Both the position numbers and the translations under genes were made by a program. A stretch of 64,000 nucleotides of DNA. It comes from Bolinopsis microptera. Its lineage: Eukaryota > Ctenophora > Tentaculata > Lobata > Bolinopsidae. The stretch's first letter is position 1, and each line of letters opens with the position of its first letter. A model generated the notes under the pieces. It did not search any database. It worked only from the letters and a program-made list of their open reading frames with translations, and had not been told where the DNA came from. Location: positions 10,355,113 to 10,419,112 of the forward strand of contig NC_087081.1 of the NCBI RefSeq assembly GCF_026151205.1, written 5' to 3'. Shown here piece by piece: positions 7,778-64,000 of the stretch.

Positions 7778-10700
7778 GTGACGCCCCCCACTAGCAGAAT
7801 GGCAGTTGTAACAGACGTGCTCGCTAGAAGTCTACCTTTGCTCACCTTACTTCTCCTTATGCCGATGTCTTCGACTCTAAACATTTCAAGTTGGAACCTC
7901 AATGGTATTAAAGGTAACATTCTTAGAAGAGAACATTTAGTAAGTGACGCTAAACGTTATCATTTAGATGTAGTGTGTCTCCAAGAGACAAAATGCCGAG
8001 ACTTCGAGGAAACAATTATTGACGGTCACAAACTTGTAACACTAGCCCAATCAGACAACTGGTATCATTATGGTCTCGGTTTTCTAATCTGCCCAGTCCT
8101 TGTACCTTCTATTGTTGCATGGAGACCACTTAGTAACATTCATTGATATAAGACTCACAGAACCCAACGGATCTCATCGTATGATCAGGATCGTTAACGT
8201 GTACGGACCAACCAAGAAGATTGTCGATGATGACATCAGTAAGGTCACAGGTAACTCCCCATTGTTACAATCATATTTCAATGATCTGAAAACTGCTATC
8301 AATATCCCAGCTCGATACGATTTGTTTGTTGCAGGAGATTTTAACGCCCGACTTGGGAGATGCAGTAGGAAAGAGTATGATGCTGGCCTTAATAATCATA
8401 TTGGTCAGTTCGGTAATGGTCTGAGAAACAGGAACGGTGAGTTTCTACTGGACTTTATTGTTGATAATGGTCTGTTTGCGTGCAATACTGCGTTCCAACA
8501 CAGAGCGAAGTATATTACCACCTGGAAGGCTAGATGTGTTCCCAAGGGCAGACCCAAGGGTTCAAAAGACACTGTGAACTATTTTAAACAAATTGATTAT
8601 ATTTTATGTCGTACTAACTTTAAAGTCTGTTTAACAGACTCCCGCTCTTTTTGCGGTGATTTTGTAAAATCTGACCATAAACCTGTGGTCGCACGTTTTA
8701 AACTTGGTTGTGAAATTGAATACATTGTACATAAGCAGCCCAGGTCTGACAAAATAAGGTTTGATGTCAATCGCCTTAATGATTCTGATATTAAGTCTAA
8801 ATTTTTTGATTCTTTTAAAAGTAATATTGATTGTATAGTTTTAACTAATAATGCTATATTTCTGAAAATTCTGATATTTTTGGTATATTGAGTGAATGTG
8901 CCGTCCAGGTGGTTGGTAAAGTGCCCCCGGCGAAGCCTCATCAGTACAGCGACGATCCAACTGTCGTTAAACTTTCAGCAGAGAGAAAGTCCCTTCAGCA
9001 AGAATGTAGCCTCACAGGGATAAGTGACAGGAGTGACCTCAGAAAAAGAATCAACCATCTCAAACGTACCATCAAAAAGAGGTTGAAATCTATCAACGAG
9101 GCCACTGCTTACGCCCTAGTAGATGTCATCAACAACACCGACAGCTGCAGAAGCATGTTTGAAGCGAATAGAACTTTGGCCCAGTGTAGGATGAAGAAAG
9201 ATGGAGTGACTGTCCACGATGCAGACGGCAACACCTTAGGTTCTGACTCATTAAAAGCAGAAGTTATTAAAGAATACTTTAATAATGAGTTCAATGACAA
9301 AGATGAACCCCACCTCTCAGCATTCATAGACCCTCCTGGAAGCCTCCTCTGTCCCATAACACCTGAAGAAGTTGGCCGTGCTGTTATGAAGCTGAAATCC
9401 GGTAGAGCGTGTGGCCCTGACGGTATACCTAATGAGCTAATGAAAGCTGCTGGATATCCCCTCCACTGTGAGTTGGCTAGGATCTACAATCTCTCCTTTG
9501 AGACCAACACATACATCCCAGCTATTGGAGAAGGTATCCTGACACCCCTTCAGAAGCCAGGAAAACCCCGAGGTCCGGTAAAGTCTATCCGGCCCCTCAC
9601 ATTGCTAAATGGAACTAGAAAAGTCCTATCCCTCGTAGCCTTAAACAGAATCAATTACCACGTTGATATGTACACTGGACCTTGGCAGGCGGCATACAAG
9701 CAGGGTCGCAGTTGTGCTTACCTGAGGACCCCAGGCTATTATGTTCATTAACATATAGAATATAGATTTGGCGGAATGACAGGCTGAGCGCGGCCCAGTA
9801 AAGTTGTGCTGACCTGGTTTGGTCTCAGAGAATGTTGACATCAGTGGTTACCAGGCGCGAGTTTGAGTATAGTAAAATCAACATTGACATGACCGCTGCG
9901 TTTAATACCATCCGCAGACAGACCATCATCAACCTCCTCATTGATGCAGGATGCTCTAGAGACGACATTCGCCTGGTTCAGTACCTCCTCTCAAATACAA
10001 AGCTCAAGGTGACGGTCAACAGAGCTGAGTCTGGTAAATTCGTGATTAATATTGGAGCTTACCAGGGAGACAGTCTGGCAGGTAAAGTGTTTACATTGAC
10101 CCTTGCCGGTGCCCTGAATCACATCAGAGCCGTGATCAGTGTCACAATTCCTAGACCGAACCCCCCAGTCTCTGATAGAGGCCTCCCGTTAGAGTCCGCC
10201 TATGCTGACGATGCTGAGCTTCTGAGTGAAGATGGTCAGAGTCTGGTGAAGATACTAGAGATTGCCAGTGACATACTAAAGGACTGGAGTCTCTTTGTTA
10301 ACGAATCAAAGACGGTGTTTACAAGAGTGTATTTGGCAGAGACATATGCTTTAGATGCCCATGGCAATAAAATCAGAGGAAATGAAGAGTGGCGAGAGTC
10401 AGTACTATTAGGATCAAAGCTCTGTTCAGAAAGGGATATTGTCAACAGACGCAACAAAGCCAATGTTGCCTTCTACACCTACAAGAAAGTCTGGTTGAAT
10501 AGTTCTGTTCAGATCAGTGAGAGTAGAAAGCTGAAGTTGTACGAAGCTCTTGTCACTTCAGTGTTGTTGTATAACTGTAGCAGCTGGGCTGCTCCTGAAA
10601 CCGTAATGGCATCTGTCGACGTTCTTCAAAGGAAGCATCTGAGACAGATCATCAACATCTATTGGCCTACGGTGATCAGTAACGAGAACTTATATAAGAG

Positions 10701-10998
10701 ATGTAATGTCAGTCCCCTTACTGAAAGGATCAAGAAAGCACGATGGAAGATGCTTGGGCACGTTCTCAGAAGCGGTGATGACACTCCCGCTTTCTTATCT
10801 TTTAGATTTGCATGTTTAGGATGTCTTGACTACAAAGGAAGGAGGGGCAGACCTCGTTCAAATTTATTTGATTTATTATTAAAAGACATTATGACGAAGA
10901 ATATTATTGTGATTGTAAATAAAAGATTTAGTTTAAGTAATTTCAACGATTTAGTGTACAAAGCTCATGATAGACGTTTATGGAGAAGCTATGGGTGA
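7778..10998 (+). pseudogene. RTE-like non-LTR retrotransposon, decayed endonuclease-reverse transcriptase
   Basis: One long reading frame broken by small changes. Endonuclease (EEP) motifs: SSWNLNGIKG and CLQETKC near the start, GDFNARLG, QIDYILC and SDHKPV. There is one frame change near 8095 and another near 8862. Reverse transcriptase motifs follow: GRACGPDGIPNEL, INIDMTAAFNTI (motif A), GAYQGDSLAG (motif B) and AYADDAELLSED (motif C). The C terminus reads RKHLRQIINIYWPTVISN and KARWKMLGHVLRSGDD, common in RTE-like LINEs of invertebrates. An 84-bp insertion at 9719-9802 interrupts the RT and changes frame. No ORF1 or tail was recognised. Inactive as it stands. Confidence 0.9.
9719..9802. 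mobile_element. 84-bp insertion with 8-bp target duplication
   Basis: GTTGTGCT is present at 9711-9718 and again at 9803-9810. Removing 92 bp (insert plus one copy) rejoins GRSCA to DLVWSQRMLTSVV in a single reading frame of the RT. Ends are TACCTGAGG and CCCAGTAAA; no clear inverted repeat. An 8-bp duplication is the size made by hAT, P and some other DNA transposons; the family is not identified. Confidence 0.78.
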
Positions 10999-32800: not shown

Positions 32801-33281
32801 GTTCACAGAGAGAATTGAATGGATTGCTCTTGCTGTGGCAGTAAATTTGGTAGGATCGAAAGTTTTATTGGGGAGCAAACCGGTCAGTGATATTTTTGGA
32901 ATGGAAGTTAAATTTTTCCCTAACTGAGTAACCAGTCAGTTAAAACATGATTTTCGTCCTCAATAGGCGTAAGCCCCTTGCTGGAAAAGCATCTTAAGTG
33001 CACTATCGACCTTCTCTTGGTACTAGGGGCGTTTAGTATCGACCCCTCTCAATCAGGGACAAAAGGATTTCGCGGCATGTACGAAATCGCGAAATTTCCC
33101 ATTCTTCGCGACAAATTTTATGTATAGTTTAATGTATATCCTGTTAAATACTTTCAGCGCTGCTATATAACAAATAATTTGAGGGAAAGTATGTCGTAAT
33201 TCCCTCAAAGGGGTGTCGTAAGTTTACACGTTGCCTTAACAGCTGATTGTTTTGACTTTTGCTGGCTGTTTGTTTTAACGT

Positions 33282-35528
33282 TTGCTGAGTATGGGTGACA
33301 ACAACAAGAGTAACAAGAGAGCCTCATCTAATAACAACATGTCACGAATTCTTTCCCCTGCGGACAAAAAGGCAAAGTCCCGGTCCAAGAACAACACTCC
33401 AGGACTAGAGGTGAAAGGAAAAGATGGATCTTGTGAGGCTATTGTTGTAGACAGTGATGTAACACTCCCAAAGATTGACAGTTCACACAGGGACAAGACA
33501 AAATGTCCATGCAATAAGTCAATATCGTCATGGAAGATTGACTGTGTAAAGTGCAAGCAATATTGGCACATAGACTGTCTAACTATGAACGGACTCAATC
33601 AGAAAAACGTCAACAGCATGACCAATTGGCACTGCCCCTTTTGTTTGGTTTTACCAATTCCCACACTCGAAACTGCTGCAGATGTGTGTTATGTGTGTAG
33701 GAACACTCTGACACTTCAAAAATCTAACAGTCAGTGTGAGACAGCTATTGCCACAGAGAAGCTTAATACCATCACAGCTTTTGGTGAAAAGCTTGGCAAA
33801 GTTGACTTTGACAGTCTAAACGACAGCATTGCCGCCATCCAGAACCTTGACCTCCATATCAAGCACCTACTGGTTAGTGACAAGAACACTGCTCCAGCAT
33901 GGGTTGAAATTATGGAAGGAGATCTGAAGCAGCTGAAAACTTCAGTTGACTGCGGACTCGGAAAGGTTTCTGAGACTGATAGTGGCCTAACAGAACAGAT
34001 TAGAGTGTTGAACAAGCAACTGCAGGACTTTTCTATTCCTCAAGTAAGTGCTCAATCTTCATCCAAGACCAAAGATCTCATGGAAAAAATAGAGAAGAAT
34101 CTCCATGAGCTAAATTCCAAGCAGTCTCTGGAGACGAATCAGGAGCTAACAGCCATCAGACAGTCTTTGAACACTCTTGAGCAAAATTCTTTGGCTTCTT
34201 CTGACCATTTAAATGCCCAACTTACCAATTCTTCACTTGCCCCTGGCCCAGACCTAACAGCTAATGAGCATCTCAAATCAAGAGAAGAACCAGTTGTAGG
34301 CGCTATAGAAGAGTTTATCACCACAGAAGAGCAGGATCTTCTCCTCCTTGCCTGTCAATCACTTGACGAGGATTTTGTTGTGGAAGGAGCTCGTGCTGTG
34401 TATTCTCTGGGAGAACCATACAAGTATAATGGCTCCAAGTCACCCAATGGTCAGCTAGAGTCAACCAGCTTCTCCAAACTGATGGACAAAATCAATGGGG
34501 CATTCTGTAGTGGTGAGAAACCGAAGATCAATAGTCTGCTGATCAACCGCTTCAAAGAGGATGGCTCCCTACCAAAACATTCGGATGATGAAGCCACCAT
34601 CCACCCCGAATCCGAAATTTTCACTGTGTCCATCGGAGGCCAGTGCAACATCAAATTCTTTGACAAGAAGACGGATGATATAGCCCTTGACCACCCATGT
34701 GTTCCAAGATCCATGTATCGCATGACACGAAGTAGCCAAGAGTATTACAGCCACTGTATCATGGATGGGGCAATAACTGGTGGGGTCAGATACAGCCTAA
34801 CTTTTCGTTCAGTTAGCTTCAGGAACAAGAACTCTACGTGCATCATAGGAGACAGTCATACAGGGGGGCTTAAGTTTGGGTCAGATGCCAGGAAATCGTT
34901 TGGACAATGGTTCCCTGGGAGGCAATATTTTGCACCAGTGGTTGACCAGATTGACCCATATGTCACATGTGGTTATCGTAACGTTGTTTTGATGTGTGCG
35001 ATTAATGATCTTAAAAAACCCGAGATCAAGAATACAGCTGATATTAAACGAAATGTATTTATTCCCTTTATTAAAAAGATTGAGAAAATTCATGCTATTA
35101 ACCCTAAGGCACATGTATATGTTTGTCCAGCCCTGCCTACAAAGCTTGCTGAACTGAATAGAAAAGTTGTTTGCTTTAACCGCCTTATTTTGACAGAGCT
35201 GATCCCTTCAAATTTTGGTGTGACTTACGTCGATGGGTTCGGTGGGTTCTGTGATGATGCTGGGCTTCTTAGCCAACAGTTCTCCAGAAACATCGGCCGA
35301 GACCAGCGACCAGATTATCTCCACCTTAACTGGAGGGGTACAGCTAAACTAGGCACTTTGATTCGTAACACAGTGCTTCTTAGAATGAATGGAGGAGTTG
35401 ATAGAAGGAAAAGGAGAACAGACGAGGTTGATGGACGCTCATATCGGAACGTGTTGAGTGGGACGGGTTCTACTACTGCTGCTGAGTCTCGACACCAGGA
35501 TGGTTACCAGCCATTCTTACTCCCCTGA
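33282..35528 (+). CDS. CR1-like LINE ORF1: PHD finger, coiled region, AlkB oxygenase, SGNH esterase (748 aa)
   Basis: Intact 748-residue frame. Residues about 74-121 form a PHD-type zinc finger (CPCNKS ... CVKCKQYWHIDC ... HCPFC). Residues about 150-330 are helical and polar, probably coiled coil. Residues about 345-515 are an AlkB-type 2-oxoglutarate/Fe(II) oxygenase: H433-S-D435 (PKHSDDE), distal H491 (YYSHC), and R503-x5-R509 (RYSLTFR). Residues about 520-700 are an SGNH hydrolase: GDSH with Ser525, N575 in CAINDL, and D678-x-x-H681 (DYLHLN). Esterase and PHD domains in CR1 ORF1 are established; the AlkB part is what stands out. ORF2 follows in the +2 frame and its open frame overlaps the ORF1 end. 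Confidence 0.93.
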   Translation: MLSMGDNNKSNKRASSNNNMSRILSPADKKAKSRSKNNTPGLEVKGKDGSCEAIVVDSDVTLPKIDSSHRDKTKCPCNKSISSWKIDCVKCKQYWHIDCLTMNGLNQKNVNSMTNWHCPFCLVLPIPTLETAADVCYVCRNTLTLQKSNSQCETAIATEKLNTITAFGEKLGKVDFDSLNDSIAAIQNLDLHIKHLLVSDKNTAPAWVEIMEGDLKQLKTSVDCGLGKVSETDSGLTEQIRVLNKQLQDFSIPQVSAQSSSKTKDLMEKIEKNLHELNSKQSLETNQELTAIRQSLNTLEQNSLASSDHLNAQLTNSSLAPGPDLTANEHLKSREEPVVGAIEEFITTEEQDLLLLACQSLDEDFVVEGARAVYSLGEPYKYNGSKSPNGQLESTSFSKLMDKINGAFCSGEKPKINSLLINRFKEDGSLPKHSDDEATIHPESEIFTVSIGGQCNIKFFDKKTDDIALDHPCVPRSMYRMTRSSQEYYSHCIMDGAITGGVRYSLTFRSVSFRNKNSTCIIGDSHTGGLKFGSDARKSFGQWFPGRQYFAPVVDQIDPYVTCGYRNVVLMCAINDLKKPEIKNTADIKRNVFIPFIKKIEKIHAINPKAHVYVCPALPTKLAELNRKVVCFNRLILTELIPSNFGVTYVDGFGGFCDDAGLLSQQFSRNIGRDQRPDYLHLNWRGTAKLGTLIRNTVLLRMNGGVDRRKRRTDEVDGRSYRNVLSGTGSTTAAESRHQDGYQPFLLP

Positions 35529-38500
35529 GTAAAGAGGTATGCCTAGTCTGTGCGAAGTTCATTAACGTAGGACAATTCATTGTTGAATGCTGTGAATGCG
35601 ACTGTCCAATGCACCATAAGTGCTATACCAAATCCATTAACAATGACACATTATCTGACGATTTTTACTGTCCCAAGTGCGTACATTTAGCAGTTATTCG
35701 TTACAATCCATTTCGACTTGCATGCACTAATTTAAGTGATATTGAAAGTAGTGAAGTGGATGACACTATCATAAAAGTAGATCAAATACTAAATAACTGC
35801 GTATCGTACAATGTCAAGGAATTCAACAAAGCACTAGATAATCAAATGAATGAATTTTCATCGCTTCTCTTCCAAAACATCGACGGCAATAAGTCAAATT
35901 TCGACACTTTCGCTATTGAATCCCATAGGCTCACCAAGAAATTCTCGATCATAGCCTTAGTGGAAACAAATGAAGGTCCTGAATCCAGCAGTTTGTATCA
36001 ATTAACTGGATACAACAGTTTCTACCAAAACACAATACCAGATAAAAAAAAGGGCACTGGAGTAGCTCTCTATGTTTGTGACACTCTTAGTGCCAGAGTA
36101 AACGGCAATGTATCCCATATCACTGAACATTTAGAAACTCTTTTTGTGGCCGTAAGTAGTACAACTTCCCCAGTAACAGTTGGTGTAATGTACCGTCCTC
36201 CAAGTGGTAATGTCAATGTTGCACTATCTGAACTCTCTGACATCCTTGACAGTCTCCCCAAGTGTAGTTACCTAGCGGGTGATTTTAACATTGATTTACA
36301 CGATAAGAATAGCACAATCGTACAACGCTATGAAGAAATACTATTAAGTAAAGGATTTTTCCCCCTAATTTCGTTAGCAACACATGAGAAAACAGGCTGC
36401 AAAGCATCCTGTATTGATAACATAATAACTAACGACGTAGAGAGTATAGTAGCTTCTGGAATACTGACTGACCGTATATCACACCAATCACCCATCTTCC
36501 AAATCTTTGATAGAAACTTGGACTCTAGCAGAATTGACCTGAAATACAAACAGTATTATGATTACAACAAACCGAATGTAAAAGCTTTTTTACAGACTCT
36601 GGAACATGATCTCAATAATAATGTTATCGACAATTTTACAACATTTCACGACATATTTAAGGACTGTATAGATAGAACTTGTAAGTTAGAAACCCCTAAA
36701 TGCTCTAAAAGAACAGCACTGAACAACCCATGGATTACACCAGACCTTGTGGTCAAAATTTCATATCAGCACGAACTTTACGATAAATGGGTAAAGGTCA
36801 GAAAAGTTAAATGTAAATTTGGGGAAATTGAAAATAAAGGGGGGACATGCCAATGCCCAATATGTTGCTCAAAACGTGACAAGTATAAAAATACAGTGAC
36901 TGCAGGCGGAAGGTCAAAAAAGATCGCCGCAATGCTCAATCTAAGTTCTATGGTGGAAAATTTGCAGAGTTGCACGGAAACAGTAAAAAGACGTGGGAAT
37001 TAATTAACCAAATACGGGGTAAACGAAAACGACAAACCATACCTCTATTTACTATCAATAATGAAAAAATTACTAATCGTAGGGTAATAGCTAATGAGTT
37101 TAATAAGTACTTTGTCTCCCTAGCTTCTAATCTTAACGAGGCATACAATGAAATCGGCGAACTAGTAATTAATGGCATCCCCAGTATCTATGACTACCTA
37201 CCAAAATCCAACACGACCAGTATTTACATGCATGATTGTACAATCGATGAAGTATGTAAAATAATATCAGAATTGAAAAATGGCAAATCGTCTGATATCC
37301 CAATACATGTTGTAAAAGCGTCATCCAGAATTATCGCCCCCCCCCCCTATTATCTGTACTATACAATGAATGTTTGAAGGAGGGAATATTCCCGGACGAT
37401 TTAAAGATTGGCAGGATCAGTCCCATATACAAGAAAGAAAATGAAGAATTACTTGAAAACTATAGACCAGTCTCTACCTTAGCCGTATTTGGTAAGTTAT
37501 TCGAGAAAATTATATATAGTAGGCTATACAGCTTTTTCCAGTCACAAAATATGATCTATGAAAATCAGTGTGGATTCCGTAAAAATCACTCTACAAGTCA
37601 TGCCCTGAATTTCTCAGTGAATTATATAGAATCATGCCTTAATAAAAAGCAGCACGTGCTCGGAATATTCATTGATCTAAGCAAAGCATTCGATACCATC
37701 TCAGCTGACAAATTACTGAGTAAGCTAGATAATTACCGAATTCGAGGCAATGCCAACAAACTCATTGCTAGTTATCTCTCTAATAGATATCAATACGTCT
37801 CGGTCCTAGGAGAAGAGTCTGACAAGCTTCCAGTTCTCTTTGGAGTACCCCAGGGATCTTGTCTTGGTCCGTTACTATTTATTATTTATATCAACGACCT
37901 ATATAGGGCAACTGAACTAGGCAAGTTCATTCTATTTGCTGACGATACAAATATATTTGTTGCGGATGAATGTAAGATAAAGTTATATGAACGAGCAAAC
38001 CAAAGTCTCAAACTGGTACAACTGTATATGAAATGTAATCTCCTGCATATTAACATTAAGAAATGCTGTTACATTCACTTTAAACCAACGAATAGAAAAA
38101 GCAAGGTAGAACATAATGAAGAAGAACACGTACTTACTCTAAACAATGTAGTAATAAAGCAAGTCAAAAAGGTGAAATTTCTTGGTGTTATTATTGATGA
38201 TCAGCTTAAATGGGATGCTCATATACGGTCGCTCAACACAAAGCTGAAATGTGAAAGTGGGAAAATTTGTAGAATACGGCACATTATTTCAGAAAAACTC
38301 TACAAAGAACTGTACTACACACTATTTGAATCACACTTGCGATTTGGGATATCAGTATGGGGTGGCCTTAGTAACAACAGGCTTGAACCAATATTTATCA
38401 CTCAGAAGAAATGTGTTAGAATACTATTTGGTAACCGAGAGGCGTACTTAGAAAAGTTTAGAACTTGTGCTAGAACACGAAGTAAAGACAAGCAAAAATT

Positions 38501-38888
38501 AGGAAGCGACTTCTATGAAAAACAGCACACAAAACCGCTATTTAAGAAAAATGGTTTACTAACCATACACAGTTTGTTCAAACACACTTGTTTATTGGAA
38601 ATGTTCAAAATCAATAAATTAGAATCCCCAGTCCCACTCCTAAATCTATTTCACAGATCATCAAGACGTGCTGATCGATTCATCACTCCAACCCCATCCA
38701 CCTCCTTCATATATCAATCGACAAAAATGTGGAACGATTGTAGAAACACTGCTAGCAATATCAACTTCTCTACATCAACGAACCTTGTAAAATCCACAAT
38801 AAAAAAGGAGTTATTCGGCATGCAGTCCAGGTACGACGAAATAGATTGGTGTGAACTGAACTTCGATTCCAACGAACTGAAATTCTAA
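35486..38888 (+). pseudogene. CR1-like LINE ORF2: PHD finger, endonuclease, reverse transcriptase (two frameshifts)
   Basis: The frame is open from 35486 but has no ATG before 35609, which lies inside the zinc finger (CLVCAKFI ... CCECDCPMHHKC ... CPKC). The best start candidate is CTG at 35525, overlapping the ORF1 TGA. Endonuclease: LFQNIDGN, ALVETNE, GDFNIDL, SCIDNIITN, SHQSPIF. Frame changes occur near 36937 and in an 11-C run at 37337-37347. Reverse transcriptase: GIFIDLSKAFDT, FGVPQGSCLGPLLF, FADDTNIF. The C-terminal region contains CARTR, shared with the minus-strand copy. The C-run could be a sequencing error; if so only one real break remains. Confidence 0.92.
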
Positions 38889-44820: not shown

Positions 44821-47800
44821 TTACTGCAATTTAAAATTGTTTGGATTCCAAGTATCTTTTAAATCAGCAGCCTGTACTTGTAATAATAGTGCCTTGGTTC
44901 TCAATTTTATCAAGTTAATGGAAGTTTCTAGGCAATTGCTTGAGGTTAGAATTTTTTTATGAACAGTGTTCCAAAGCTTGGCTGCAGTGAACAAAAAAGT
45001 ATTTGATTTATTAAGAAGAATAACCGTTAAACTCGTTGTACGGTTTGAAATGTTGATGGCCTCATAAAGGGAGTATGGGCAGTGGTACTTGATAATCTTA
45101 GAGAATTCTGAAATGCAATGGTACTTGAACAAGTTTTGAACTGTAAGAATTTTTAGTCTATTAAAAATGGGTTTTGTATGCTCCTTTTCAAAATGTTTAT
45201 GGCCTAATCTTTGCATACCATATGGTCTAGTTCTTGCACATGTTGATTGTTTATCTAGATATGAGTCGAGATCACCAAAAAGGATCCTTATACAGTGCTT
45301 CTGAGTGATAAAAAGACTGTCATTGGACCGTTCCTTGATGACAACACCCCAAACACTTATACCATAACTGAGATGTGATTCAAAAAGAGCATTATATATT
45401 TTCAAGTATAGTTCAGCAGGTATAGAGTGCCGGATTCTACAGATTGCACCAGTCATGGTCCGCAGCTTTTTACGGATGTAGTGCATGTGGGCAATCCAGT
45501 TTAGCTTACTATCTATAACAACACCTAAGAATTTGGTATCCTTGACTTTAGTAATAACCTTACCATCGATGAATATTGATCTAGATTCATCTAGCAGGTT
45601 AGCAAATGGTCTAGTCCGCGCACAGGTGTCATCATATTCAGAGGCAGGTTTAAAATGTATGTAGCAGCATTTGGACATGTTGATATGAAGTAGATTACAT
45701 TTCATGTAAATCGAGACATGTTTAAGTACTAAGTTGGCTTTTTTATATGTTGCTTCTCTAGATGGTCCTGATATGAAGATATTAGTGTCATCAGCATAAA
45801 GTACAAATTTCACCTCACTGTCTGAAAAACAGTTTACTATATCGTTCATATACAGTAGGAAGAGTAGTGGCCCAAGAATTGACCCTTGTGGTACTCCAAA
45901 TTTCACGTCCATTGTTACTGATGGTACATCGTTATACATAACATACTGCTTTCTGTTAGTCAAATAGCTTTTAAGTAAGGTAAGTGCTGAACCCCTAATA
46001 CCGTAGGAATTTAACTTGCTTAGAAGAATATTGTGATCAAGGGTGTCAAAGGCTTTGCTCAAGTCAATGAATATGCCCAATACATGTTTATTGCTAGCCA
46101 GAGACTTTGTAACGGAGTCTATAGATTTGTGTAGAGCATGAGTGGTAGAATGGCCTTTTCTAAATCCAAACTGTGAGTCTGTTAGTACACCTTTAGATGT
46201 GAAGAAATTATAAAGGCGTTTGTAAATGATCTTCTCAAAGATTTTTCCAAATAAAGGTAATATTGATACAGGCCGATAATTTTCAATGCATTCCTTATTG
46301 TCTTTCTTGTAAATAGGAATAACTTTACCAGTTTTAAATATACTTGGGAATGTACCACTTTGTATACATGTGTTGTAAAGCCTGGCCAAGGTACCAGCAA
46401 TGAGCTTTGCCGATTTTTTTACAACGATTATAGGTATGTCACTCGCCTTGCCATTTTGAAAATCTCTGATGACCTCGACAATCTCGTCTTCATTAGTTTC
46501 TTCAAGGTATATGGAGTCAGATACTGAATTAGACATGAACTGAGCAAATGATTCTACTGGTTCCAGAGAAATACTATTGTTTGACAATACATTTTTATTG
46601 AGATTACTTGCAAGAGATGTAAAATATTCACAAAATTTGTTAGCAATTATTCGTCTGCAAGTAACTCTCTGGCCATCTATGACAAAATCGTCCTTACATC
46701 TAGACAAATTTTTACCACGGAGTTCATTTATAACTTCCCAAGTCTTTTTCGAATTCATGCTGTACTTCTCGAATTTTTGAGTATAGCACATAGCCTTTGC
46801 CATATTTATTGACCTTTTGAGAAACTTGTCGAATTCCTTGTAGTAGATGTGCTTGTTTGGGTCCCCGTCAGGTAGTTTTAATGTACAAGTCTTCTTCCAT
46901 TCGAAATACAACCTAGCTTTCTTATCGATGGAATTAATTAGGCCCTGGGTAATCCAAGGGTTGGTTATGCTGTTACGTTTAGTGGTTCTAGGAGTTAGAA
47001 GTTTGCAAGACAAATCTATCTTTTCTTGAAATAACTGCATGAAAGAATCAAATGTGTTACAGCTGTGGTGGAACCTATCTACATCGTTTTCTATTTCAAG
47101 ACAGAGCTTTTCTAAGTTAGCATTACTATAGTCGTAGTGTATAGTAATTTTGTCTGATGAATCAGGTGTTGGCACAGAGTCAGGGGAAAGTTCAATAAGA
47201 GTGAATATAGGGTGATGGTGGGAGATCTTGTCAGATATCACACCAGAAATAAGGGTTTGATCTACTACATTGGTATGGATATTGTCAATACAGGTCCTGG
47301 AACAGCCAGGCATTTGGTGAGTTGGTACTGATATGGTTGGTATGAAGCCGTTGTTGAATATTATTTCTTGGAATTTGTCCTCTGATGGAGATGGGTCCTT
47401 CAACATGTTTATATTGAAATCACCAAGAATATATACTTTTTTGCCATTCAGTTTTGAGAGAATACATTCATATGCTTCGTTGAACAGTTCAAGTGATGCG
47501 TTTGGGGGACGGTATATAACCCCTACAACAGTTGGGTCTTGCAAGCTAGTGATGGATACGAACAGTGATTCTATGTGTTCATTACAGAGAGATAAGCCAG
47601 GGATTTTGTTAAAGTTAAAGGAGTTGTGCAGGTAAAGACACACTCCTGATCCTTTACCCTTGAACTGGTTTTTCTTTTGACAAAAATAACGTGATTGGTA
47701 ACAGGAGGAGTATCCGTTAAGCTGATACAGAGTTCCATTTTCGGGATTAGTATTTGTTTCTGCAAGACCGATAACAGAGAATTTGTGGTCGATACAAGAC

Positions 47801-48225
47801 AGCTCAACTGCAAAGTTGTCAAAGTTTGATGCATTTCCATCAATATTTAGGAATAATTTGGACAAATATTTAGCTGAATTTTTAGGTAGGATGGTAGCAT
47901 TCAACTCAGTTATGGAGAATGTTTTGCAATTTTCAAGAATCTTTGAGCTATTGTAGATAGATTCAATATAATTAACTGGCTCATCATCAATGAGGCCATT
48001 GTTTGCAAAGTGTGGAGCTTGGTAGAAAGGGTTGTACCGTACAATATCATTGGCATCAGTGCATATTTTGCAGTATGTTGCATCTCGAAATTTGGTTATG
48101 TTATCATCAGTTTTACATTTTTTGTGCATTATTTTGTCACACATCTGACAAATCAAAAATGGATGTCCAGCACGCACAGGTCTATCGCAACAGCAGCAGA
48201 TTTCGCATATCAGTTTGACTACCAT
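44821..48225 (-). CDS. CR1-like LINE ORF2, intact (1134 aa)
   Basis: Unbroken frame with ATG at 48225-48223. Residues 7-55: PHD/RING-like zinc finger (CEICCCCD ... CQMCDKIMHKKC ... CKIC). Residues about 120-345: EEP endonuclease, with E156 in LAETN, GDFN at 268-271, CIDNI at 312-316 and SHHHP at 335-339. Residues about 590-860: reverse transcriptase, with FIDLSKAFD at 719-727, FGVPQGS at 776-782 and YADD at 810-813. The C terminus includes CARTRP twice. All catalytic motifs are present, so this copy was active recently, though ORF1 of the same element is interrupted. The ATG overlaps the ORF1 stop as ATGGTAG. Confidence 0.95.
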   Translation of the reverse strand: MVVKLICEICCCCDRPVRAGHPFLICQMCDKIMHKKCKTDDNITKFRDATYCKICTDANDIVRYNPFYQAPHFANNGLIDDEPVNYIESIYNSSKILENCKTFSITELNATILPKNSAKYLSKLFLNIDGNASNFDNFAVELSCIDHKFSVIGLAETNTNPENGTLYQLNGYSSCYQSRYFCQKKNQFKGKGSGVCLYLHNSFNFNKIPGLSLCNEHIESLFVSITSLQDPTVVGVIYRPPNASLELFNEAYECILSKLNGKKVYILGDFNINMLKDPSPSEDKFQEIIFNNGFIPTISVPTHQMPGCSRTCIDNIHTNVVDQTLISGVISDKISHHHPIFTLIELSPDSVPTPDSSDKITIHYDYSNANLEKLCLEIENDVDRFHHSCNTFDSFMQLFQEKIDLSCKLLTPRTTKRNSITNPWITQGLINSIDKKARLYFEWKKTCTLKLPDGDPNKHIYYKEFDKFLKRSINMAKAMCYTQKFEKYSMNSKKTWEVINELRGKNLSRCKDDFVIDGQRVTCRRIIANKFCEYFTSLASNLNKNVLSNNSISLEPVESFAQFMSNSVSDSIYLEETNEDEIVEVIRDFQNGKASDIPIIVVKKSAKLIAGTLARLYNTCIQSGTFPSIFKTGKVIPIYKKDNKECIENYRPVSILPLFGKIFEKIIYKRLYNFFTSKGVLTDSQFGFRKGHSTTHALHKSIDSVTKSLASNKHVLGIFIDLSKAFDTLDHNILLSKLNSYGIRGSALTLLKSYLTNRKQYVMYNDVPSVTMDVKFGVPQGSILGPLLFLLYMNDIVNCFSDSEVKFVLYADDTNIFISGPSREATYKKANLVLKHVSIYMKCNLLHINMSKCCYIHFKPASEYDDTCARTRPFANLLDESRSIFIDGKVITKVKDTKFLGVVIDSKLNWIAHMHYIRKKLRTMTGAICRIRHSIPAELYLKIYNALFESHLSYGISVWGVVIKERSNDSLFITQKHCIRILFGDLDSYLDKQSTCARTRPYGMQRLGHKHFEKEHTKPIFNRLKILTVQNLFKYHCISEFSKIIKYHCPYSLYEAINISNRTTSLTVILLNKSNTFLFTAAKLWNTVHKKILTSSNCLETSINLIKLRTKALLLQVQAADLKDTWNPNNFKLQ

Positions 48226-51132
48226 GACTGGATTACAGATCTACGAGAACGTGGGGAAAATCTATTTTGGGCCTTGGTAACATCACTGAACAACCTCCCA
48301 TCAACGGGGCTACCTAGAATCTTATGGGCAATTGCCCGGGAGAGTTTGAAGATACCGCTTGACCCCAGGTGGATTGGGTCATCCGGCTTCTTGTACCTAC
48401 AAAACTGTTTGTTCAGTAGACCCTCCTCATCGACAAAACTATCAAAATCTAAATTTCCTATTCTAGCGTTGGTATTACAGTACCCAAACAATATACTATT
48501 AAACTCCATGGCTCTCTCATTTAGCCAGGAGGACCTAGTTGGTAGGATTGGTGAAACTATAACTTTAGAGTAAGGACAAATTTCACAAATATTCGTGAGC
48601 TTCTTCGTCAGCTCATTAGCCCAGTGTTTAACATCACCCCCTCCCCTCTTAACGACTGTAATGATTCCATTAAATTTTCTTAGTACATTTAGCTAGTTTA
48701 TAGTAGATACACACGATCACAGAATAGAAGAGCACAATTGGGCTCTTTGTTCTGCGACCGTGTTTCCTCGGTGGGCCGACAGGTTTTTGTTGTGTAGTAG
48801 TGCTGGGGAAAAACACGCTTTGAATATCAATGAATGTAAATATTGTTAATTGACATTAGTGCCACAGTTTCTGTGGTAAAAACAAATTTATGGTTAAACA
48901 TTATATATCGTAGAAGGGCATGATTTACGCACATCACCAAGCATCTGGATGGATAATTAACACACAAGGATAAACTGACCTTTAAACATGACCACCAGCA
49001 ATATCATATAACCATAGCTCCGAAATAAATAAATTGCTCTACATAGAAACATCTGGCCTGATCTTATCACATTGTGGTCCCCAGGGGTTCGGTAAAGCCC
49101 TTACAGGCAACTGGGTCCTTTTACCAGCCACAATTAAACTAGTCATGCCAGTACTGTCATAAACTGTAACCAACTATTTAAAAATAAGATATCTTTTGCT
49201 AGAAGAAGAATAAGATATCTTTTGCTAGAATTTTAAATTGTAAGCCATAGAGCAATCTTCTCAATTTTAAAATTTAAAAATAACATTTTACCCTAACTAT
49301 GATGTGGTGGCATTTCATACTTAACTAAATTTCAACTTTGAAAGTCAATAGATTATTAGTCACAACAAAATTATAGTTTAAGACATCCATTTTGCATTGT
49401 GTTTCCAATATTAGAATTTATGATATGTATTGATTGAATAATTGGTAATAAATTTAACTTTTGTTTTATTAACTTTTGTTTTATTAATATTATTTACACC
49501 ACAGTGTACTACAACATTCTTATATCCTACACAAAGGGCAGGGTCTAACTGATCTATTGTGAAGCATTCAAGTCTTTTTCCAGGCAGTTTGTGACCGAAT
49601 GTCCCTTTTCCAGCACCAAATCGGAGGAACCGGGTATTTGAGTCACCAATAATCAATGTTGCATTGCTACTGCTGCTCACGTAGCGGAATGTTATACTGA
49701 ATCTCACGTCCCTCCTTTCACTGCTCTTATCTATTCTGTGGTCCCAGAGGAACTGAGACTGCTTGCTCATGATATATAGACTGCGTCCCTCTATTGTCTC
49801 AATGACTTCCCCACTTTCTGATCCTTTCATTGAGAACTTAACTGAACACTGGCTTCCTAACGATACAGTGAAAATCGAACTATCATGCACAAGCGAGTTC
49901 TCGTTATCCGAGTGTTTAGGGAGAAAACTGCTCTCATCATTGTACCGGTTGATCAGGCATTGATTAATAACTGTTTCAGGGCAAAGCTTCTTTATCCTTG
50001 AGGCAAGTTCAGCAAGAACTTCAGGCAGGTCTTCTGATATGGGCTTAGCAGCTTTTGCCCCGGGGTAATCATATCGTTCACCAAAGCTTATAACTCCATG
50101 CCCGTTTTCTGTGTTCTTGACAAAATCATCGTTCTGTTGAGCAAGGAAATCTAATAGCTGAGAGTTCAAGGTTGTATCAATGAATTCTGGTAAATAAGAC
50201 ATGATGTGCTTAGACTTAGGGTCGTCTGCACTTGAAGGCTTCTGTGCATCTAGCAGGAGCTGTTCATGGTCTGTTTCACAGGCTGCTGGTGGCCCTATGA
50301 TAAAAGGAGGCATGGGCAGGTCAGGAGTGGATACGTTTGAGGATCTGCTGTTTTTGAAACAGTTAATATCAACTTTGAGCTCAGCAAGCTTGGTGTTTAT
50401 GGAGTCAAGAGTCCTAAGGTGGCTATCATTGTCTTTCAAGTTTTTAATGGATGTTTGAATATCTTCTAAGGACTTGTGTATAGAGCTTTCGTTAGAAGTA
50501 GTATGACCCATTGGAATGCTGGAGGGGGCTGACAAATAAGAAGGGGACTTAACCTCGTGGTCACATCTCTTGCCACTTATTACAGCACAGACATTTTCTG
50601 CAAGGCCAAGCAGGGATAGTAGACCCTCTGCTAAGGTGAGTTTTTTAAGAGATGGGCAGCTCTTAACCATAGATGGCGTTATGATTGCAAATTTGTTCAC
50701 ATCAAGTTTTAGAATGTTACAGATGTTGAGCTTAATGATATCTACCTCTGAGCGCAGGCTCTGCGAGTGAGTCAACAGGAAGTTGTCAAGGGGGGTAGAC
50801 CCTGAGAAGAAACTAAGGAGGCTGCTACAATCTTTATTTTCCTCTGATTCGTGGTATTCTGAAAGAATTATATTTTCAACATCCTTCAGTACTTCGTCAA
50901 TTTCCACCATAATGGTAGGAGTCGTGGGTGCAGGTGTAGTCTGATCCGGAACCGTAGTAGTTGAAGTCTGGTCCGGAACAGATTGAGAAGAGTCAGTGGG
51001 TGTATCGTTCATGGCGTAGAAGCAATTGGGGGTACCAGGCAATCCAGGGGGCACCTTCACGTCCAACCAGCACACTCCCTGGAAAGAAAGAAAAGCAGAT
51101 AACAATTTCAAATGTTCCGTTGTGGAAAACAA
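48219..51132 (-). pseudogene. CR1-like LINE ORF1: helical N terminus, AlkB oxygenase, SGNH esterase, split by an insertion
   Basis: First part 51132-49411 (573 residues; likely real start at Met41, MNDTPTDSSQ). There is no PHD finger; residues about 75-260 are mostly helical. AlkB domain at about 315-485: H407-S-D409 (PKHSDNE), H465 (WDHRID), R477-x5-R483 (RFSITFR). SGNH esterase starts with GDSN (Ser498) and CGVNN, then breaks. It resumes at about 48692 (LRKFNGIITVVKRGGG ... VIVSPILPT ... DPIHLG) and ends VIQSW, TAG at 48221-48219. The break is about 750 bp of unrelated DNA. Confidence 0.9.
48696..49455. mobile_element. About 750-bp insertion in the LINE ORF1 esterase region
   Basis: Separates GVNNINKTKV from LRKFNG of the SGNH domain. 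It holds a TTTTTGTTGTGTAGTAGTG segment (48785-48803) that also occurs at 41352-41370 as TTTTTGTTGTGCAGTAGTG, which suggests a shared repeat family, and a doubled AAGATATCTTTTGCTAGAA. Borders are uncertain and no coding region was found. Confidence 0.55.
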
Positions 51133-51649
51133 TGAAAGTGTATTTAAACTGGATTAGTCAAAATGATTCAAAAGATTGAAAAATTGAACAGACTGACGGA
51201 CTACGACACATGGGACAAGAGAGTGAGTGAGTATGAAAAATATGAGGTGGTTGGACTGGCAAGCCCTATCATTTAATCAGAATACATTAAATATAATCCA
51301 TAAGCCATATATATGTCAGCCTGTTCTTGGAGCACAGCCCCAAAAGTTATCAGAAGTATTGGTTCAAGATTTAAGCTCAAAATTCTTTCAACACTATCTA
51401 TACATTAATCAGGGTTGTCCAATTGTCCAATTGTGGATTGTGGTGTGAATGGAGTTATACATTTCCAAACAGAAACATTATTCACTACAACTACTTAACT
51501 TCTTAACAGGTTAGCGTGCCAGTCTTCTGATTCAGCACCCCCTGGACCATCATAGTACCCCCGATGCAGTTGACTTTAGCAAGCCATGGACATATTGGAC
51601 ATCCTCAATAAATGTAATAGATTTGTAGTGTTGTAATTAGTTTAAAATA

Positions 51650-60697: not shown

Positions 60698-61769
60698 TTG
60701 AAGATAATATTTTTTGATCCCAGCAGCTTACAGTCCCAAATCAACAAACTGGTAGAATATCTATGCCCATTCTGCTATGTAGCACCAATCCCAACCATAA
60801 ATCATGACCTCGACCTCTGCCATGTCTGTATAAACACACTCACGATCCAGCAAGCCAACAGTGTTCATGAAATAGGAATAGCAAGTGAGAAGCTGGAACA
60901 AATGGCATCATTTGGTGACCTGCTCAACAAAGTGAACTTTGACAACCTCAAAGATGGACTATTGGCCATACAGAACCTTGAGCTGCATGTTCAACATATA
61001 TTAATCAGTGAGGAAGGTCTGAAGCATCACCAAAACAAAGTGAGTTAGATAGAGGAACATATGAGCGAAATTGCTAAGCAAAAAGCATCAGAGGATGGTT
61101 CAATCACTGACATGGTAAAACAGACACATCAGTTGGTTGAACAACTCCAGAAGATCAGTGATAAGCCGGAGGTAACATCTCACAAGAACGAGGAGCTAAT
61201 GAAAAGGATCGAAGACAAGCTCCGGGCACTAACCGAAAGTGAGACAACTTTTCAGACCCAACTTAACAGTTTAGGTAGTCAAATATGTGGCTGAGAAACA
61301 CTCTCCTCCACCACATACTCTCTTACAACCTGACCAGCCTACCCCTCATATAGCACATGACCAGGTGCCATGCCTGTAACGGAAATCAAGCCAGATTTCA
61401 TTCTGTCAACTGAATCTGATAAAATTACTGCCTTTCTTCAGTCATGTTTTCAGAATTACAACTATTGTGTACTCAATAAAGTAATTATCACTTTTGTATC
61501 CTTGTATCCTTGTATCCTTGTATCCTTGTTCCTTCGAATCAGAGAACGGTCACTCTGTCATTTCATTTGGCAATACCTACCACTACACTGGTTCTAAATC
61601 TTCAAAAAATGTTCCACCGATTCCTGAGGAACTTAAACCATTATTTGATGAAATGAACAAAGTACAAACTGAGCTGTACAATAAGTGCTACCCGGAGCAG
61701 CCCCACCTGACGGCCCCAGTTAGGAAATATTTGATAAAACTTGGAAATATTCTACACTTACTTGTGTAA
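60698..61769 (+). pseudogene. CR1-like LINE ORF1 fragment (PHD end, coiled region, AlkB start)
   Basis: Third copy of the ORF1 family. Fragments: LCPFCYVAPIPTINHDLDLC (second half of the PHD region), FGDLLNKVNFDNLKDGLLAIQNLELH (matches FDSLNDSIAAIQNLDLH of the 33282 copy), a coiled segment, then GHSVISFGNTYHYTGSKSS from the AlkB N terminus. It has stops and frame changes. The 5' part is missing exactly where the element 55185-60683 ends. A short LINE tail is inserted at about 61449-61531. Confidence 0.88.
61449..61531 (+). mobile_element. Short LINE 3' tail insertion ending in (ATCCTTGT)n
   Basis: About 80 bp: TTCAGAATTACAACTATTG, then CTCAATAAAGTAATTATCAC, then four TATCCTTG units. The reverse complement of the same sequence lies at 29847-29920 and 32573-32640. 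It splits the AlkB region of the ORF1 fragment. An 8-bp terminal repeat is the kind of end CR1-type LINEs have. Confidence 0.8.
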
Positions 61770-62897: not shown

Positions 62898-64000
62898 ATG
62901 CTTGGAATAACAAAGAAACTTTCTACTCCTCTACAGCTTGGATCCAGGTAGCAAATATTTTAAAGTTCTGTTTTAAATGATGTATAATTTGTATTTCATG
63001 AGATATTATTATAATCATCGATACTTAATTTTAGTTAAATCCCTCAATGCTATTTCAAAAATCTAAGATCAACTTTAATGGAGACTCAGACCCATGGATA
63101 ATTTCATCTACCTAACAAAAAACTTTCATTTCTCACTTGTTCGTGTACAGGTGTATATTCCATTTCTCACTTGTTCGTGTACAGGTGTATATTCCGATGG
63201 AGTGGAGCCAACCTGGAGAAAGCCATGGCACCGGATCCAGAGCAGGGTTTCAGGCGTGACCATCCCCAAACCTTCGACTCTGCTGAGTGGGCCATCCCAG
63301 AGAATGAGATTGTGGGTTTTTTAAATTATTGTTTTCGTAAATTAAGAACGTGTTAGCAATATATTATTATACAGGATGGTCTATAATTAACACGATGTAC
63401 AATTTCAAATTTCATTAAAAGTTATCGTATTTTTTAAATATTGCTTTTTTTCTCTCTGCATTATCACAATTATAATCCAGCCTGATAACCTGATTAAAAC
63501 AACAACCAACTTTGTTACAACTGCAGGACATGGCTGTGCCTCAGTACAAAGCACCTGATGAGCGATTGTTGTCCATTAATTTTGGTCCACAGCACCCTGC
63601 TGCGCACGGCGTACTGCGCCTCATGTTGGAGTGTAAAGGAGAGGTTTAATTATAATTTTATACATTACGTTTGATTCAATTTTTGCAAGTGTTTGGTTTT
63701 AGATTCATATTTAACAAAGTAACAAGTATTTAGTTTCGTTTTGATTTCTAGCTTTTTTTATTAAATACTTTTCAAATTTTACAGAGTACAGCAATAGATG
63801 AATATAAAATAGAATCGTTCAAAATATCGCCCCCATCTGTAAAATATGATGGGCACCCAAACACGGTAAACACATAGTGAACTATGTCCGCAGTAACTTG
63901 GACCCATTACATCGAATTAATCTAAATCCAAAAATTTATGAAAAACTATTTAATAACAAACAAATCCATGGTGAATAACTGTGGATGTAGAGTCAAAATT
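62898..64000 (+). CDS. NDUFS2: NDUFS2, 49 kDa subunit of mitochondrial complex I (5' part)
   Basis: Complex I subunit of the Q-binding arm in the mitochondrial inner membrane. Exon 1, 62898-62947, encodes [16 protein letters not shown], a basic, hydroxylated start typical of a mitochondrial targeting peptide. Exon 2, 63185-63311, encodes [21 protein letters not shown] to [10 protein letters not shown]. Exon 3, 63527-63643, encodes [18 protein letters not shown] and [11 protein letters not shown], the family's invariant [13 protein letters not shown] block. Phases match at both junctions (AG|G, then phase 0). The gene runs off the right edge; no further exon was found before 64000. The exon 2 acceptor lies in a 34-bp tandem duplication. 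The exon 2 donor GTGGGT is slightly unusual. Confidence 0.93.

Follow-up and report, generated by a model that had tools for sequence, protein, structure and literature searches.

Within a 64,000-nucleotide stretch of the genome of the ctenophore Bolinopsis microptera (NC_087081.1, positions 10,355,113 to 10,419,112, forward strand; hereafter the window), a long interspersed nuclear element (LINE) carries a first open reading frame (ORF1) in which an AlkB-type oxygenase domain is joined to an SGNH hydrolase domain. We show that the AlkB fold and the catalytic residue sets are present, that the AlkB domain is under purifying selection, and that the AlkB-SGNH pair recurs across LINE lineages and in Helitrons. 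The presence of this pair in unrelated kinds of element, kept there by selection, suggests that an element uses it to clean its own nucleic acids chemically or to unmask them.

The window holds two main copies of the element. In copy 1, ORF1 runs on the plus strand from an ATG at 33291 to 35528 (745 amino acids, in an open frame of 749 codons at 33279-35528). Its parts are a PHD-type zinc finger (33504-33644, residues 72-118), long predicted helices that are likely a coiled coil, at low confidence (33690-34184, residues 134-298), the AlkB-type 2-oxoglutarate (2OG)-Fe(II) oxygenase domain (34302-34826, residues 338-512) and the SGNH domain (34830-35390, residues 514-700). In copy 2, on the minus strand, ORF1 with AlkB and the first half of SGNH lies at 49411-51153, with an ATG at 51012.

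Fold and catalytic residues

Copy 1 matched 2OG-FeII_Oxy_2 over residues 363-506 with 43 bits, against a Pfam cut-off of 31.2 (E=7.8e-11), and copy 2 matched PF13532 with E=1.6e-16. The initial annotation, made from the letters alone, had read the AlkB iron ligands and an R-x5-R motif in both copies, and this was borne out. In copy 1 these are H430, D432 and H488 with the 2OG-type R500-x5-R506 (34578-34808; HSD at 34578-34586, the distal H at 34752 and R-x5-R at 34788-34808). The double-stranded beta helix, whose absence had been named beforehand as evidence against an AlkB, was found.

Both window copies were aligned with 28 database proteins (n=30). P0023 was excluded; an "ORF1-endonuclease fusion" was rejected for it because the gene model reads the endonuclease before ORF1 and joins two elements. 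All 30 members matched PF13532 at E of 0.01 or better. With a mean column identity of 36% only, the alignment had H430, D432, N414, N419 and E434 in 30/30 sequences, and H488, R500 and R506 in 29/29, 29/29 and 28/28 of those with a residue there. Of the 170 AlkB columns 22 were invariant, and they included all five catalytic columns named beforehand (P=2.4e-5); of the 187 SGNH columns 23 were invariant, again with all five so named (P=1.9e-5). These P values are for 30 rows that include both window copies, with gaps ignored and relatedness uncorrected. In the host genome, H-x-D, H and R-x5-R were kept in 40 of 41 AlkB segments (37 places, three of them host-like), the single miss being cut by the end of its locus.

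This conservation bears on whether AlkB might be only a structural domain that binds RNA or single-stranded DNA for an esterase-type ORF1, with catalysis dispensable. Such a role would suit the order of the domains, AlkB preceding SGNH in LINE ORF1s with both, and the esterase ORF1 proteins of Repbase, for which neither an RRM nor another structural RNA-binding domain is described (PMC3905857; the papers cited here by PMC number are drawn on as partial text). However, the five invariant catalytic columns and the motifs intact in nearly all genomic segments argue against it, and we consider it unlikely.

A profile of the AlkB domain only scored ALKBH2 at 6e-13, ALKBH3 at 4e-11 and ALKBH5 at 0.24. 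ALKBH2 and ALKBH3 are cellular repair enzymes. ALKBH2 (HRDDE) and ALKBH3 (HSDDE) share H-x-D-x-E, which is general among the elements, whereas ALKBH8 (HIDTH) does not; a narrower signature, H-x-D-[D/N/S]-E, was dropped because its fourth residue is variable. The element AlkBs do not branch inside ALKBH2 or ALKBH3 in our trees, so they were not classed as either.

For SGNH and PHD, the single-sequence Pfam matches of copy 1 were below cut-off (E=0.002 and E=0.11), and both domains were supported by profiles and motifs. The SGNH fold was found, and the SGNH profile matched the ZfL2-1 esterase (PDB 4c1b) at E=6.6e-5. S522 (in GDS 520-522), G543, N572, D675 and H678 were invariant where present in the 30-sequence alignment; in copy 1, GDS lies at 34848-34856, N at 35004 and DxxH at 35313-35324. 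These residues had been annotated correctly in copy 1, but DxxH is not confined to that copy, since copy 2 has DPIH. The SGNH frame of copy 2 is interrupted by about 850 bases, inserted or unalignable, and its second half with D-x-x-H sits beyond them, at about 48650-48216 on the minus strand; the idea that copy 2 is without the SGNH His was rejected for this reason. The PHD Cys/His columns were at least 90% conserved in the alignment, 8 of the 30 members matched PHD at E of 0.01 or better, and no PHD was seen there in copy 2 ORF1. The helices of residues 134-298 had ten-residue pLDDT (predicted local distance difference test) means of 31-59 and matched designed coiled coils.

Purifying selection in the host genome

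The annotation had taken the retention of the enzyme in two diverged copies as a sign of selection. Between copies 1 and 2 the synonymous divergence (dS) is saturated and the ratio of nonsynonymous to synonymous divergence (dN/dS) is not readable. We used copies from the host assembly (264.65 Mb) and estimated dN/dS over the AlkB segment by the Nei-Gojobori method with 95% bootstrap intervals. A pair qualified if it had 15 or more synonymous changes and dS below 1.6; sequences recur among the pairs, which are not independent. The ratio was 0.04-0.31 across families, with an upper bound of at most 0.59 in 23/23 qualifying pairs. For the window copy it was 0.14 (0.06-0.29) against L031, 0.16 (0.06-0.29) against L032 and 0.17 (0.09-0.32) against L033. 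A further pair gave 0.19 (0.10-0.30) for AlkB, 0.11 (0.06-0.18) for SGNH and 0.46 (0.14-1.38) for the linker. Pairs excluded for few synonymous changes include L031/L033 (0.37, 0.09-1.10), L032/L033 (0.50, 0.10-1.50) and L031/L032 (0.88, no bound); those excluded for dS of at least 1.6 or saturation include window copy 2/L032 (0.36, 0.17-0.63), L020/L022 (0.36, 0.18-0.70) and L038/L019 (0.34, 0.18-0.55). A ratio near 1 across AlkB, named in advance as the result that would speak against selection, was thus not seen, and the AlkB domain is under purifying selection.

The window ORF1 has many relatives in this genome. When the best 60 of 1072 candidates were scored, the 61 resulting rows comprised the window copy, 27 rows at 76-99% identity, three of which are pieces of one place, and 33 rows at 41-46%. 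A scan with PF13532 gave 587 first-look AlkB candidates, and the best 150 of these, scored in 151 rows, had an internal stop in just one; scoring the best first favours intact copies.

It is possible in principle that AlkB is a captured piece of a host gene, functionless, carried along and decaying. Helitrons do capture gene pieces (PMC6431247), and the SGNH frame of copy 2 and the third ORF1 copy of the window are broken. The low dN/dS, the near absence of stops among the best-scored matches and the spread of the pair over deep reverse transcriptase (RT) lineages and Mnemiopsis all count against such a fragment, and its probability appears to be very small.

The pair in other LINEs and in Helitrons

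We fetched 10 kb around each of 20 AlkB places; three of them (L024, L025 and L026) resemble host or other AlkB genes, which left 17. Three layouts of LINE were found. Class 1 has PHD, coiled coil, AlkB and SGNH followed by ORF2, as in the window, and keeps the SGNH catalytic S, G, N and H with the D of DxxH. Class 2 has an ORF1 of 551-646 amino acids with AlkB and then SGNH, in which SSS stands in place of GDS and L020 is without the D, and an ORF2. Class 3 has an ORF1 of 777-884 amino acids with AlkB, a coiled coil and a probable SGNH, and an ORF2. The class 3 SGNH is suggested by the motifs HDS, GVND and DQLH and by hhalign (E=2.4e-4, probability 43%); it was reported neither by Pfam, with two class 3 ORF1s scanned, nor by the PDB search. 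RT identity among the classes is 24-38%, and class 2 is a grouping by ORF1 layout, not by RT, the RT of L020 being 32-34% identical to the others. An ORF2 with an APE-like endonuclease and RT adjoins ORF1, as in APE-type LINEs; the endonuclease scores below the Pfam cut-off in the window copies and above it in other elements. Proteins with AlkB and SGNH were also found in Mnemiopsis, and the A1 profile search gave one further protein.

The same pair is present in Helitrons, in four giant frames with the order SGNH, AlkB, DUF6570 and Helitron_like_N. The evidence is from Pfam for L009, L010 and L029, to which the DUF6570 scan was limited; for L011 and L012, Helitron_like_N was identified by genome match and SGNH by our own profile. 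The frame of L009 (3540-9998) continues in its neighbour L029 (G000:C10:16874382 onward); this frame, the one scanned for helicase, was followed to its end (3388 amino acids) and has a PIF1 helicase after Rep (Helitron_like_N). Its N-terminal SGNH motifs are GDS, GTNN and DNLH. The SGNH of L009 is below the Pfam cut-off (26.9 of 32.9 bits) and that of L010 above it (43.6). As judged by position and frame length, 6 of the 41 genomic Helitron_like_N matches share a frame with one of the best-scored AlkB matches; for a seventh, AlkB and SGNH lie in a different frame about 4-6 kb upstream.

The pairing was also approached from SGNH. The best 150 of 424 SGNH candidates were scored, and one copy was fetched from each of nine frame-length families which, as far as examined, were without a neighbouring AlkB row among the best-scored PF13532 matches. 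Seven of the nine (4/4, then 3/5) have, in the frame that holds SGNH, a match to our own AlkB profile with H-x-D-x-E and R-x5-R retained, and two (L046 and L049) did not match this profile. The pairing therefore appears to be common and not obligatory. In two of the seven, which were also scanned with Pfam, PF13532 was not reported; these AlkBs are thus diverged and identified by our own profile. ORF2 was sought downstream of three of the seven, and RT with endonuclease was found in two; L051, downstream of L043, matched neither in a scan with our own profiles.

Three of the fetched places deserve separate mention. L024 (4986-5687) encodes a host ALKBH2-like protein in a single frame of 234 amino acids, which groups with human ALKBH2 in two trees. 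L026 (4563-7019) has an ALKBH3-like frame of 296 amino acids, followed on its own strand after about 700 bp by an SGNH frame, and may be a host gene or another mobile unit. In L028 (2580-3900), the upstream part of a 1163-amino-acid frame resembles a Penelope-type RT; on this likeness, an ORF1 element has apparently inserted into another retroelement.

Exchange of modules and origin of the domain

Identity between the window copy and the more distantly related L031, L032, L033 and L040 falls from 88-95% to 61-82% at about 34830, the AlkB/SGNH border (approximate break point 34826-34836 on the plus strand), with one edge block at 78% in L033. P0002 has the mirror pattern, its SGNH being 93%, its AlkB 70% and its N-terminus 42% identical to the window copy. 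The RT of L018 is 98-99% identical to that of L023 and L027, and their AlkB segments are 66-67% identical. These identities show that ORF1 was exchanged between L018 and L023/L027 and that modules are swapped with the AlkB-SGNH pair nonetheless retained.

The separation of AlkB from SGNH by recombination argues, together with the nucleic-acid substrates of its nearest relatives ALKBH2 and ALKBH3, against the two enzymes acting on one shared target other than nucleic acid, for example a membrane protein or lipid. We regard such a joint target as improbable, although the pair is retained in differing orders, AlkB-SGNH in LINEs and SGNH-AlkB in Helitrons, and the ZfL2-1 esterase binds phospholipids and not oligo(A) (PMC3905857).

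A tree of 50 sequences separated the class 1 AlkBs, together with element AlkBs taken from databases, from the cellular ones with a support of 99. When classes 2 and 3 and the Helitrons were included, the LINE-Helitron group, without class 3, split from cellular AlkBs at 92/96, and with seven additional diverged families this fell to 89/54. We do not claim a single origin of all element AlkBs on this declining support. Class 3 AlkBs fell among cellular AlkBs in both larger trees, weakly placed. From the tree topology it is possible that elements acquired AlkB more than once, and perhaps the pair with SGNH was also assembled more than once.

Proposed role

We give about an even chance to the reading that these elements are LINE retrotransposons with a multi-domain coat or chaperone ORF1 holding AlkB and SGNH, in which AlkB clears ALKBH2/3-type marks for copying. 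The ORF1 protein would coat the element nucleic acid through its coiled coil, and AlkB would act on single strands of element RNA or DNA, stripping such alkyl marks as N1-methyladenine and N3-methylcytosine and so letting the strand be copied. SGNH may act at membranes, as proposed for ZfL2-1, or on an ester. Since the domain is nearest to ALKBH2/3 and has H-x-D-x-E, N1-methyladenine and N3-methylcytosine are likelier targets than N6-methyladenosine (m6A). The initial annotation had proposed demethylation of the element's own RNA or cDNA, to protect template copying or to avoid host marking, and the fold, the catalytic residues and the selection are partly in line with this. Helitrons have no reverse transcription and yet carry this pair, which argues that the copying of template RNA is not the only step served. 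The target common to LINEs and Helitrons is therefore more probably DNA of the elements in single-stranded form, or their mRNA generally, than LINE template RNA alone.

The residue after H-x-D weighs against this reading. E434 is fixed, but in many elements the D preceding it in the H-x-D-D-E signature of ALKBH2/3 gives way to N, R, C, K, S or G; in 27 homologues this fourth residue is N in 12, D in 9, R in 4, C in 1 and K in 1. Such variation weakens the preference for N1-methyladenine and N3-methylcytosine. It would fit an eraser by which AlkB removes a mark that the host makes to silence transposons, m6A in RNA, or N6-methyladenine (6mA) or another mark in DNA. The domain occurs in RNA- and DNA-based elements, as would fit a defence aimed at both kinds. 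A PDB chain named DNA N6-methyl adenine demethylase gives a weak match to the AlkB profile (E=0.002), and the AlkB of an orchid Ty3/Gypsy element demethylates m6A in RNA in vitro (PMC9289625). However, the orchid domain is ALKBH5-like, whereas our elements score far better with ALKBH2/3 than with ALKBH5. We consider such an eraser possible, at less than even probability.

Beyond the copying role that we prefer, AlkB and SGNH may tentatively be viewed as a portable two-enzyme cassette of unrelated ctenophore transposon classes (several LINE lineages and Helitrons). The cassette would counter base alkylation or acylation that a host defence, or damage, puts on transposon nucleic acid in single-stranded form. 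If this doubtful proposal is true, ctenophores defend themselves against transposons by a hitherto unknown modification of nucleic acid. A selected nucleic-acid demethylase fold in transposons makes base modification as a limit on transposition directly testable, and the pairing of SGNH across RNA- and DNA-based elements offers a new handle on the role of the LINE esterase.

Other features of the window

Downstream of copy 1 ORF1, the first part of ORF2 (35486-37003, plus strand) has a PHD-like finger and an APE-type endonuclease (PHD E=0.003 and Exo_endo_phos E=1.7e-4, neither reaching the Pfam cut-off), and the second part (37296-38888, plus strand) has the RT (RVT_1 E=5.1e-36). Since ORF2 is split over these two frames, copy 1 is broken there. 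Copy 2 ORF2 (44821-48240, minus strand), endonuclease-like with RT, is open over 1139 codons. In both, ORF2 starts with a PHD-like Cys-rich finger ahead of the endonuclease (35486-35700 and 48100-48240). The ORF1 stop overlaps ORF2, by CTGA at 35525-35528 in copy 1, with no ATG, and by ATGGTAG at 48216-48226 in copy 2; this looks like termination-reinitiation. A pyrimidine-rich tract that ends in CAG, like a splice acceptor, lies shortly 5' of ORF1 in the window around 51080 and in L013, L017, L021, L042 and L044.

The third ORF1 copy (60731-61718, plus strand) is degenerate and terminates within AlkB. A further, frame-broken LINE with endonuclease and RT pieces is located at 8088-10998, and the copy 2 RT gave no match to its frame from 9802. 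At 63525-63650 there is a short exon-like stretch which we take to resemble the 49-kDa subunit of NADH dehydrogenase.

Comparison with known systems

The annotation had suspected that AlkB was new to CR1 ORF1. Our search of open-access papers, of which the best matches were listed and with Repbase and subscription papers outside its scope, found no AlkB in LINEs or Helitrons. The survey of 448 Jockey-superfamily ORF1s by Metcalfe and Casane 2014 has RRM, CCHC, PHD, CTD and esterase types and, in the text available, no AlkB, with PHD and esterase in separate subtypes, unlike here (PMC4120745). Among the extra Helitron domains catalogued by Arkhipova and Yushenova 2019, in the available part of PMC6431247, AlkB is likewise not included. 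The element AlkBs also differ from ALKBH2 and ALKBH3 themselves, being on separate branches and without a fixed D after H-x-D.

AlkB has previously been found in orchid Ty3/Gypsy elements and in RNA viruses (PMC9289625). The Phalaenopsis element of Alvarado-Marchena et al. 2022 is, like ours, a retroelement that acquired an AlkB-type oxygenase, there with m6A demethylase activity (PMC9289625). Unlike ours, it is a plant long terminal repeat element of about 25 kb with the ALKBH5-like domain in a separate ORF, and an SGNH partner is unmentioned in the text available. The plant RNA viruses (Alpha- and Betaflexiviridae and Closteroviridae, cited in PMC9289625), compared by description only, are also mobile genetic elements with an AlkB.

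Fish Helitrons with texim, the SGNH genes beside them reported by Tomaszkiewicz et al. 2014 (PMC4021074), differ from ours in that texim is a neighbouring intron-bearing gene outside the Rep-helicase frame, AlkB being unnamed in that paper; like ours, they link a Helitron to an SGNH hydrolase, one related to the SGNH of CR1. The elements of the window are similar to the CR1/L2 LINEs with an esterase ORF1 (type IV; ZfL2-1, PDB 4c1b), which have a coiled coil followed by SGNH and an ORF2 with APE endonuclease and RT. Schneider et al. 2013 described esterase ORF1s without a known structural RNA-binding domain (PMC3905857, partial text), and here such an esterase is fused to AlkB, the closest relatives of which have nucleic acids as substrates.
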